Assembly: GCA_018920255.1 (NCBI GenBank)
Contig: JAHLMR010000021.1
Span: 1-7,107 of the forward strand
From: Candidatus Aenigmatarchaeota archaeon
GTDB lineage: Archaea; Aenigmatarchaeota; Aenigmatarchaeia; Aenigmatarchaeales; JAHLMR01
DNA: 7,107 nucleotides
Reading direction: 5' to 3'
The notes beneath the pieces are model-generated. The model had not been told where the DNA came from. It was given only the letters and a program-made list of their open reading frames with translations, and did not search any database. Of the stretch, positions 1-7,104 are shown piece by piece (the stretch's first letter is position 1; every line of letters starts with the position of its first letter). A program made the position numbers and the translations under genes.

Positions 1-2
1 AT

Positions 3-108
3 GGGCGGGTAGCTCAGCCAGGTTGGAGCGCCAGTCTTATAAGACTACGCTTCATATAAGCAGTGTAGAAACTGGTGGTCAGGAGTTCAAATCTCCTCTC
101 GCCCACCA
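3..108 (+). tRNA. tRNA-Ile (anticodon UAU), one intron, CCA encoded
   Basis: Full cloverleaf. Acceptor stem 3-9 pairs with 98-104 (one G-U), D-stem GCTC 12-15 with GAGC 26-29, anticodon stem CCAGT 31-35 with ACTGG 71-75, T-stem AGGAG 81-85 with CTCCT 93-97 around loop TTCAAAT. The discriminator is A105 and CCA is encoded at 106-108. Removing 28 nt from the anticodon loop leaves the 7-nt loop CTTATAA, so the anticodon is UAU (38-40), which reads AUA. The mature length is 78 nt. Most archaea decode AUA with a CAU-anticodon tRNA carrying agmatidine; a genuine UAU is known from a few lineages such as Nanoarchaeum. AUA is a frequent Ile codon here, including in S8e. It ends one base before the next tRNA, so the two are probably co-transcribed; any promoter lies outside the window. 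Confidence 0.88.
43..70 (+). other. tRNA-Ile anticodon-loop intron (28 nt)
   Basis: The boundary is ambiguous by one base (42-69 or 43-70) because A42 and A70 are identical; the mature tRNA is the same either way. I prefer 43-70 because it gives a relaxed bulge-helix-bulge. UUAU 37-40 pairs with GUAG 65-68 (two G-U pairs), the 5' bulge is AAG 41-43, an inner helix ACU 44-46 pairs with AGU 62-64, and GCUU 49-52 pairs with AAGC 58-61 around a 5-nt loop. C36 is left unpaired opposite A69-A70, so the motif is not perfectly canonical. Confidence 0.7.
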
Positions 109-129
109 TGGGCCGTTGGTCTAGCGGTA

Positions 130-143
130 ACAAAAAGCCGTAT
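130..143 (+). other. Putative D-loop intron of tRNA-Val(UAC), 14 nt
   Basis: The segment ACAAAAAGCCGTAT interrupts the D-loop. GCGG 124-127 pairs with CCGU 138-141 (one G-U) to form a 4-bp helix. A 3-nt bulge follows it on each strand (128-130 and 142-144), and cutting each bulge after its second base removes exactly 130-143. The outer helix is the D-stem itself, with U122-A123 unpaired. Excision restores the 9-nt D-loop TAGCGGTAT, matching TAGTGGCAT in the tRNA-Val at 7030. The structure is bulge-helix-loop rather than full bulge-helix-bulge, because the intron is too short for an inner helix. Non-canonical archaeal tRNA introns need a broad-specificity splicing endonuclease. The alternative is an unspliced, oversized D-loop. 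Confidence 0.72.
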
Positions 144-159
144 TGACGCCACCCTTACA

Positions 160-170
160 ATTTTTAAGAA
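160..170 (+). other. Anticodon-loop intron of tRNA-Val(UAC), 11 nt
   Basis: This is a textbook minimal archaeal intron at the canonical 37/38 position. CUUA 154-157 pairs perfectly with UAAG 165-168, flanked by 3-nt bulges CAA 158-160 and AAA 169-171, with the outer helix CCACC/GGUGG and only UUUU 161-164 as the terminal loop. Cutting each bulge after its second base excises 160-170 and leaves a 7-nt loop. Confidence 0.88.
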
Positions 171-225
171 AGGTGGAGGTCGACAGTTCAAATCTGTCAC
201 GGCCCACCATTTCTAAAAAGTTAAA

Positions 226-2981: not shown

Positions 2982-4127
2982 TTATATCTCTATTTCTTCT
3001 TCATATTTTCTAATAAGTAAAATTTTTTGATTTTTTATTTTATATTCCCAAAAATCTTGAATAGAATGTGTGCCTTTCATTTTTGCAATTCTAATATATC
3101 TTTTTGAACCTTCTCCTTTAAATTCAATTATTCCATCTACCATGTAACTTATTGTTGCTAATGTTTTTTGCTCTAATGTTCCTTCTTCAACTATTAATAT
3201 TGATGTTATTTCATAATCTTTTAATTTAGATATTGTATTTTGTATAAATTTTATTAAAATGTCTGGTTCTGATATTAATGATAAGCTTGAAATTGTATCT
3301 ATAACACATCTTTTTTCTTTGTTTGATTTTAATTTTTCTAAAACATCAGTAATTAAAATAGAAAGTTTATCTAAATCTAATTGTCCTTCAATAGCAAATT
3401 CTTCATCTGATTTTCTATTATGTCTTGAAGAATAAGCATCTATAATTATTAAATTTTTCGTTGATATTTTATTTTTCTTAAAATATTCTCTAATCTCTTT
3501 TGGGTTTTCATCAATTGCAATATATAAGCATTTTTGATCACGCAAAAGTCCATCTTCTATGAACTGTTTTGCTAAAGTTGATTTTCCAAAACCAGATTGA
3601 CCTTTTAAAAGTACTATAGATTTTGGTGGTATTCCTCCTCCCATTAATTCATCTAATTTTCCTATTCCAGTTTTTATTCTTTCTGTTGCCCATTCTTTAT
3701 TTAAATTTAACATATTTTTATCTAGCATTATTGCAAGACCAATTAAAATTAATAAATAAAATATTTTATAATTTTCTTGTAAGTTTAAAAGAAAACCAGA
3801 AAATACTATACCAAATAAAATAATTAAAACTGAAATTGATAGCCAAGACGTTGGTATTTTTTTATCTTTAAAATATTCTTTAAAATGTAAAAATAATAAA
3901 ATTCCTGAGATTATAAATAATATAGAAATTAATAAAACATCTAAAGTTAAAATATAAAATATATTAATAATTTGAAGTAAAATAAAAATTGATGAAGTTA
4001 AAATTAAGAAATCCCAGACAAAAATTCTTTTTTTGTAAAACTTTTTTGTAAAAATAAATGTCATAAAAATTAGAAATATAAATGAAAAAATCATCAAAAT
4101 TCTAAAAATTAAAAATGCGTATTCCAT
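2982..4127 (-). CDS. Membrane-anchored KaiC-like RecA-superfamily ATPase
   Basis: A 381-residue two-part protein. Residues 1-140 hold about five hydrophobic helices (roughly 4-26, 36-58, 60-81, 95-116, 121-137). A KaiC-like domain follows, opening with ERIKTGIGKLDELMGGG (149-165), then Walker A GQSGFGKST (176-184), acidic pair D206-E207 at the catalytic glutamate position, Walker B with D277 in RCVIDTISSL (273-282), and the late motif IAKMKGTH (347-354) that matches KMRGSEH in the other KaiC-like protein here. ATP binding and hydrolysis look possible. The fusion should tether an ATPase to the cytoplasmic face of the membrane. It is the first gene of the probable operon with DUF72 and the secretion ATPase. 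The start is supported by AGGGTG at 4135-4140, 7 nt before the ATG. KaiC-like proteins include the archaellum protein ArlH, but membership in that subfamily cannot be shown here. Confidence 0.88.
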   Translation of the reverse strand: MEYAFLIFRILMIFSFIFLIFMTFIFTKKFYKKRIFVWDFLILTSSIFILLQIINIFYILTLDVLLISILFIISGILLFLHFKEYFKDKKIPTSWLSISVLIILFGIVFSGFLLNLQENYKIFYLLILIGLAIMLDKNMLNLNKEWATERIKTGIGKLDELMGGGIPPKSIVLLKGQSGFGKSTLAKQFIEDGLLRDQKCLYIAIDENPKEIREYFKKNKISTKNLIIIDAYSSRHNRKSDEEFAIEGQLDLDKLSILITDVLEKLKSNKEKRCVIDTISSLSLISEPDILIKFIQNTISKLKDYEITSILIVEEGTLEQKTLATISYMVDGIIEFKGEGSKRYIRIAKMKGTHSIQDFWEYKIKNQKILLIRKYEEEIEI

Positions 4128-5052: not shown

Positions 5053-5754
5053 GTGATTATTATGCAAGAAAAAAGAGTGAAATCTGGAATTCCTGGTATG
5101 GATGAATTAATATCTGGTGGATTTATTAATGGTTCACAAATACTTTTAACTGGAACTGCTGGAACTGGAAAAACAGTTTTTTGTTCTCATTTTTTATATA
5201 CAGGAGCAAAAGAAAATGAACCTGGTCTCTATGTTAGTTTTGAAGAACCTCCTGAAAATATTAAGGCAAATATGGCTAAACTTGGAATAGATTTTGAAGA
5301 ATTTGAAAAGAAAAAGCTTATTATGTTTTTAAGATATGATCCTTATCATATTGAAGATATATTTGACTTAATAGAATCTGCAATTAAAAAAATTAATGCA
5401 AAAAGAATTGTTATAGATTCTATATCTTCTCTTGGTTTATATATTCGAGATCCATCTGAAATGAGAAGAACCATTTTAAATCTTTCAATATTATTAAGAA
5501 AAAGTGGAATTACTTCTATTTTATCTTCTGAAATCCCTTCAGAACAAAAAACTCTTTCAAGATTTGGAGTTGAAGAATTTGTTGCAGATACAGTAATAGT
5601 ACTATATTATTTAAGAACTGAATCTCAATTTTCAAGAGCAATAACAGTTTGGAAAATGAGGGGAAGTGAACATTCTCATAAACTACATCCTTATAGAATA
5701 ACAGAAAAAGGAATTATTATTTATCCAAAAGAAGAAGCATATATTAAAATTTAA
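5053..5754 (+). CDS. KaiC-like RecA-superfamily ATPase, single domain
   Basis: A soluble 233-residue protein with one complete KaiC domain: RVKSGIPGMDELISGGF (8-24), Walker A GTAGTGKT (34-41), YVSFEEPPENI with catalytic Glu pair E64-E65, Walker B with D122 in RIVIDSISSL (118-127), and the C-terminal KMRGSEHSHKLHPYRIT (201-217). Archaea have many such proteins, mostly of unknown role and often linked to signalling; the cyanobacterial clock protein has two tandem domains and is not implied. It is a paralogue of the membrane-anchored protein at 4127-2982, sharing Walker B and C-terminal motifs. The start is uncertain: GTG 5053 fits leaderless spacing from the TATA box, while ATG 5062 removes three residues and is a stronger codon. 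The gene overlaps the endonuclease Q gene by 4 bp, tail to tail. Confidence 0.92.
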   Translation: MIIMQEKRVKSGIPGMDELISGGFINGSQILLTGTAGTGKTVFCSHFLYTGAKENEPGLYVSFEEPPENIKANMAKLGIDFEEFEKKKLIMFLRYDPYHIEDIFDLIESAIKKINAKRIVIDSISSLGLYIRDPSEMRRTILNLSILLRKSGITSILSSEIPSEQKTLSRFGVEEFVADTVIVLYYLRTESQFSRAITVWKMRGSEHSHKLHPYRITEKGIIIYPKEEAYIKI

Positions 5755-7029: not shown

Positions 7030-7104
7030 GGGCCGGTGGTCTAGTGGCATGACGTCACCTTGACGCGGTGAAGGTCGAGAGTTCAAATCTCTCCCGGCCC
7101 ACCA
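7030..7104 (+). tRNA. tRNA-Val (anticodon GAC), intron-less, CCA encoded
   Basis: Acceptor GGGCCGG 7030-7036 pairs perfectly with CCGGCCC 7094-7100, D-stem GTC 7039-7041 with GAC 7051-7053, anticodon stem TCACC 7055-7059 with GGTGA 7067-7071 around loop TTGACGC, and T-stem GAGAG 7077-7081 with CTCTC 7089-7093. The anticodon GAC (7062-7064) reads GUC and GUU. The discriminator is A7101 and CCA is encoded at 7102-7104. At 75 nt without introns it is a template for interpreting the two-intron tRNA-Val(UAC) at 110-209. As at the other tRNAs here, the gene is preceded and followed by AT or T, so another tRNA could follow beyond the window edge. Confidence 0.95.

Follow-up and report, generated by a model that had tools for sequence, protein, structure and literature searches.

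The window analysed here is the entire 7107-base contig C13 of a 552-kb genome (G000) that is 94.6% complete and comes from a tiny uncultured archaeon of the Aenigmatarchaeota, a DPANN (Nanobdellati) phylum; the nearest relatives of its tRNA splicing endonuclease (EndA) are nearly all from Candidatus Aenigmatarchaeota. The Rfam tRNA model matches the window at 3-105, 110-206 and 7030-7101. The central match belongs to a tRNA-Val(UAC) gene with an encoded CCA and two putative introns (110-209, forward strand; RF00005, 46.9 bits). Its tandem neighbour is a tRNA-Ile(UAU) gene (3-105, forward strand; 54.7 bits) for which splice search gives one 28-nt intron (40,68) at 37/38, and the third match is an intronless tRNA-Val(GAC) gene (7030-7104, forward strand; 66.6 bits, also detected by ARAGORN) that serves as a comparator within the window.

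Elsewhere in the window, the ORFs at 2982-4127 and 5053-5754 encode KaiC/RadA-like ATPases as judged from their translations, the first with N-terminal membrane segments. A minus-strand HPnc0260 match at 171-308 scores 37.9 bits against a gathering score of 59; it overlaps the 3′ part of the tRNA in antisense and was taken as chance. The tRNA-Ile gene at 3-105 reads UAU, and no tRNA-Ile(CAU) was seen among the tRNA genes found; AUA may thus be read without agmatidine. The gene is found again at the end of contig C25, and window positions 1-110 are the reverse complement of the start of that contig (G000 C25:1-112). With these shared ends, C13 is probably the continuation of C25, the two being joined at the tRNA-Ile gene.

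The tRNA-Val(UAC) gene has a body at 110-206 and its CCA at 207-209. The acceptor, anticodon and T stems are intact, the anticodon is UAC, and the Rfam model accommodates the body by treating two stretches as insertions. Both loops are enlarged to the lengths given in the original prediction, the D-loop (122-144) to 23 nt and the anticodon loop (154-171) to 18 nt. The D-loop holds a 14-nt candidate intron, ACAAAAAGCCGTAT, at 130-143 (position 21/22, forward strand). Here the 5′ strand of the bulge-helix-bulge (BHB) central helix is exonic (GCGG at 124-127, corresponding to G15, C16, G18 and G19) and the 3′ strand lies in the intron (CCGT at 138-141), with the standard pairs G124-U141, C125-G140, G126-C139 and G127-C138. 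The motif has no real inner helix, for which reason it is counted as a relaxed BHB, and a 2x3 internal loop separates the central helix from the outer D-stem. The anticodon loop holds an 11-nt intron, ATTTTTAAGAA, at 160-170 on the forward strand, beginning one nucleotide 3′ of the anticodon at the canonical position 37/38. Its 4-bp helix joins exonic CTTA (154-157) to intronic TAAG (165-168), again through standard pairs (C154-G168, U155-A167, U156-A166 and A157-U165).

Given the gene start as its sole input, and required to leave a valid cloverleaf after cuts two nucleotides beyond either strand of a central helix, a splice search returned introns at 130-143 and 160-170 with 4/4 central pairs in each, the same limits that had been proposed from inspection. 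The cuts lie two nucleotides beyond GCGG and beyond CCGT in the D-loop, and equally far beyond each strand of the 154-157/165-168 helix, so that the proposed CUUA/UAAG core and the GCGG/CCGU helix with its flanking cut sites were both recovered. ARAGORN missed the gene in the unspliced window, detecting only the tRNA at 7030. It found no tRNA when the anticodon intron alone was removed and the D-loop insert was kept, and a tRNA-Val(tac) with intron i(37,11) when the D-loop insert alone was removed. Removal of 130-143 restores a standard tRNA of normal length; once fully spliced, the gene yields a 75-nt product (CCA included) that ARAGORN recognises and that equals tRNA-Val(GAC) in length, with 63 of 75 positions identical, in agreement with the resemblance first noted. 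The shorter intron had also been described as close to the smallest possible. Archaeal tRNA introns span 11-129 nt, with 20/21 and 22/23 among the listed sites, and the Crenarchaeota and Nanoarchaeota are singled out as rich in them (PMC4090602). The 11-nt intron therefore equals the known lower limit, and neither size nor site is a record.

How far the D-loop helix exceeds chance depends on the register allowed. The register fixed by homologous D-arms gives a mature AGCGGUA-UGAC, compared with AGUGGCA-UGAC and AGUGGUA-UGAC in intronless genes, and shuffling the 14-nt insert produced a 4/4 helix in this register 0.5% of the time (strict P 0.005). With any acceptable register admitted, 9% of shuffled inserts gave such a helix, so that the helix of tRNA-Val(UAC) by itself is modestly beyond chance and constitutes weak evidence. 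What carries the case for the predicted D-loop intron is the register shared with homologues, together with the paralogue and the relatives. Seven D-loop inserts (Val, Glu and Pro from this genome, Val and Ala from G003, Val from G009 and Pro from G005), some of which may share ancestry, jointly give P ~ 2e-6 in the strict test (Fisher). Folding predictions give the D-loop helix a pairing probability of 0.94-1.00 at 37 °C and 0.64-0.85 at 75 °C and a contribution of ~5 kcal/mol on top of the cloverleaf. Against an intron-bearing functional precursor, the D-stem is not formed in its lowest-energy predicted fold.

A nearly identical D-loop insert, ACAAAAAGCCGCAA, is present in the paralogous tRNA-Val(CAC) gene on contig C20 of the same genome. 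Between the two genes the helix changes from GCGG/CCGU to GCGG/CCGC, a G-C pair replacing the G-U pair, and is kept. Inserts at the identical site that differ in sequence and preserve the pairing occur in tRNA-Val(CAC) of G009 (15 nt, GUGG/CCGC) and, in G003, in tRNA-Val(GAC) (35 nt, GUGG/CCAU) and tRNA-Ala(GGC) (32 nt, GUGG/CUGC). In six members of the order (G006, G007, G011, G012, G014 and G016) the D-loop of tRNA-Val(UAC) is uninterrupted and of normal length. An equally long but unfoldable D-loop in a relative's tRNA-Val(UAC), which the original prediction had named as evidence against an intron, was seen in none of the relatives examined; in sister genomes the D-loop is intronless or carries an insert that is itself a candidate intron. 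A strict pattern for the 21/22 site matched 7 genes in 5 of 156 genomes of the class, and a reversed control pattern had no match in the same 156 genomes. Two of the matches lie outside the order and are also in tRNA-Val(GAC), one of them with an identical mature D-arm. Much larger D-loop inserts, at another D-loop position, occur in the tRNA-Val genes of G004 (L193, L202).

Ectopic introns extend well beyond this gene. We found at least 39 tRNA genes in the genome, about 34 of them interrupted, drawing on Rfam, on a T-loop pattern and on one T-loop intron used as a query; the list is a lower bound. A standard covariance search yielded 16 matches above threshold in this nearly complete genome, against at least 39 genes, and tRNA counts of such genomes are therefore badly underestimated. 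The 39 genes contain ~50 introns, comprising ~20 in the anticodon arm, at least 11 in the D-loop and ~19 in the T-arm, where inserts reach up to 129 nt. These counts derive from the splice search and from five genes read by hand, namely Leu(GAG), which the search mis-spliced, and Glu(UUC), Cys, initiator Met and Ser(UGA), for which it gave no result. ARAGORN served to check the manual splicing of four of the five, and Ser(UGA) was read by eye only. The register chosen by the search was 2-3 nt away from the one restoring the homologous D-arm in Pro(CGG), Pro(GGG), Asn and Thr(CGU), and the latter was preferred; for a Leu gene on C19 the anticodon read by the search is wrong.

D-loop introns are predicted in Val(UAC), Val(CAC), Pro(CGG), Pro(GGG), Glu(CUC), Glu(UUC), Asn, Thr(CGU), Thr(GGU), elongator Met and Ser(GCU). 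The original prediction had placed the sequence in DPANN and called a D-loop intron unusual there. The host assignment holds; the intron is no isolated case, with at least 10 further D-loop introns in the genome and others in several members of the order. Val(UAC) and Val(CAC) are each represented by one copy among the 39 genes, so both presumably must work. The intron density is ~1.3 per tRNA gene; Thermoproteales average 0.84, and Pyrobaculum calidifontis has 71 introns in 46 genes (PMC8450103). Judged from these gene models, the tRNA genes of this genome rank with the most intron-rich known.

Most of the T-loop introns belong to one family of ~50-130 nt (GAACCTTCTTTC...GAAGCTTC) that is inserted at the same T-loop site in ~15 different tRNAs (L218-L247; G000 C1:6000, C18:56136, C23:20100, C23:659, C25:24355, C22:27150, C12:1056, C23:17841, C11:39640, C25:21735, C11:58688, C19:4620, C23:8767, C20:22975 and C11:62049). 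The 16 other genomes of the order nearly lack the family, and its distribution looks like recent intron transposition. The spread resembles the intron transposition described in Thermoproteales (cited in PMC4090602 and PMC4033280). Several other genes have distinctive arrangements. The elongator tRNA-Met (L252, G000 C23:400-1100) has three introns, in the D-loop (15 nt, 4/4 helix), at 37/38 and in the T-loop. In tRNA-Pro, both this genome and G005 (L080, L104, L213, L214) have D-loop introns of 13 to 50 nt at another D-loop site, with a palindromic CUAG/CUAG central helix, and tRNA-Glu(CUC) and tRNA-Glu(UUC) (L020, L114) have 11-nt D-loop introns with CGGU/GCCG, matching the smallest tRNA introns reported.

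The presence of a D-loop intron had led to the prediction of a broad-specificity splicing endonuclease, whose subunits were to be sought and typed in the same genome. Contig C11 carries two adjacent EndA genes encoding proteins of 170 aa and 183 aa, both with PF02778 and PF01974 (the tRNA_int_endo N- and C-terminal domains). The 183-aa protein keeps the catalytic Tyr and His and the 170-aa protein is without the His, a gene layout of the (alpha-beta)2 type with one putatively catalytic and one putatively structural subunit. Enzymes of alpha/beta architecture cut relaxed BHB introns and are called broad-specificity (PMC6379350), so the gene pair is consistent with the predicted activity. The genome also encodes the ligase RtcB (589.7 bits).

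What could not have been foreseen from the window is that the EndA alpha subunit departs from the Tyr-His-Lys catalytic triad. Tyr and His are present and the Lys position is Ala. We aligned 53 loci, 51 from the class and two outgroup sequences (Micrarchaeota and Archaeoglobaceae). Among the 51 class-level EndA alpha sequences (L001:1258-1809, L116-L166) this position is Ala in 47, Thr in three and Ser in one, with Tyr and His invariant; both outgroup loci retain Lys. The third catalytic residue is Lys156 in M. jannaschii, and the two enzymes tested lose all activity with alanine there (PMC12397907). Activity of an EndA alpha without the lysine essential in those enzymes is therefore not guaranteed by homology. 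Throughout the class, the catalytic Tyr and His are separated by a loop K-K/R-G-P-K in which one Lys is fully conserved; N. equitans has a similar Lys-rich loop yet keeps the catalytic Lys, so the loop is no proof of compensation. Across the order, the relation of alpha/beta EndA to D-loop and T-loop introns has the expected direction and is not clean, since G034, for which one EndA gene was found, has a D-loop insert.

Taken together, tRNA-Val(UAC) is very probably a functional archaeal gene with two protein-spliced introns that would be cut by EndA and sealed by RtcB, with transcription, cleavage and ligation proposed from the genome sequence. In the transcribed precursor, G15, C16, G18 and G19 of the D-loop would pair with CCGU of the first insert, and CUUA of the anticodon loop with UAAG of the second. 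With each 4-bp helix, the scissile bond on either strand would fall two bases beyond the pairing; the alpha/beta EndA would cut after 129, 143, 159 and 170, and RtcB would join the exons into a 75-nt tRNA. G18 and G19 are needed for the tRNA elbow, and excision of the D-loop intron would release them. With G15, G18 and G19 occupied by the helix, the intron would therefore have to be removed ahead of elbow formation and ahead of the action of enzymes requiring a mature D-arm.

One could instead suppose that the D-loop insert is retained, and that the tRNA-Val in use has its D-loop expanded by a small additional hairpin. Insert and D-loop alone are indeed predicted to fold into a stable hairpin, but its helix would occupy the G18 and G19 that general tRNA knowledge assigns to the elbow. 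Homologues have either a normal D-loop or a 14 to 35 nt insert here, always leaving the same mature D-arm; the at least 10 other D-loop inserts and ~19 T-arm inserts (to 129 nt) cannot all stay; and the genome encodes both a splicing enzyme and a ligase. We regard retention as improbable. Still less probable is a pseudogene or decayed copy, an idea to which the failure of ARAGORN to find the gene in the window lends some weight: all stems are intact, CCA is encoded, this is the sole tRNA-Val(UAC) found, and 63 of 75 positions match the intronless paralogue.

The EndA alpha subunit belongs to a class without the catalytic lysine, which raises the question of whether the D-loop insert is removed by something else, through self-splicing or by another nuclease. 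By general knowledge, however, 14 nt is far below the size of group I or II introns, the cut sites obey the BHB rule on both strands, and the canonical 37/38 introns already need some enzyme, for which EndA is the only candidate found. Removal by anything other than EndA therefore seems to us hardly credible. A broader scenario can be drawn, to which we give less than even confidence. The Aenigmatarchaeota EndA would have lost the catalytic lysine and use another group, possibly a lysine of the K-K/R-G-P-K loop; in one order with a separate beta subunit it would tolerate D-loop and T-loop introns, which would have let the T-loop intron family spread independently of Thermoproteales.

D-loop introns of this kind have been described mainly from Crenarchaeota, Nanoarchaeum and ARMAN. 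Among the papers searched, none on tRNA introns in Aenigmatarchaeota was found, and as far as these papers show, the lineage, its density of ectopic introns and the altered enzyme are new. The genome-wide setting of the introns is more interesting than the single tRNA-Val(UAC) gene. An order of Aenigmatarchaeota joins the bearers of D-loop introns, with members that have and members that lack an intron at the same site. It offers a natural series for following the gain and loss of ectopic tRNA introns, and for asking whether the enzyme change came before them. The missing catalytic lysine challenges the textbook triad.

A close parallel is offered by the Thermoproteales and other Crenarchaeota (PMC4090602), which share small introns, sites in D-loop, T-loop and stems, several introns per gene, relaxed BHB motifs and similar introns copied between tRNA genes. 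The lineage here is in contrast a deep DPANN/Nanobdellati one, and its 21/22 site adjoins the listed 20/21 and 22/23. Nanoarchaeum equitans is likewise a DPANN archaeon with non-canonical introns and an alpha/beta EndA, there of the (alpha-beta)2 kind, in which a Lys-rich loop separates the catalytic Tyr from the His; unlike our genome, in which no split tRNAs were seen among the tRNA genes found, it has split tRNAs, and its alpha subunit keeps the catalytic lysine. ARMAN-1 and ARMAN-2 (Micrarchaeota; PMC6379350, PMC12397907) also combine DPANN affiliation with relaxed-BHB introns, a lineage-specific loop and a broad-specificity enzyme, which for our genome is predicted, but their epsilon-2 EndA is one fused three-unit protein, whereas two separate genes are found here. 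The tRNA-Ile(UAU) of Cyanidioschyzon merolae, with introns in the D-, anticodon and T-arms (PMC9602550), has the same accumulation of several ectopic introns in one tRNA, the D-arm included, although in a eukaryote with a TSEN-type enzyme.
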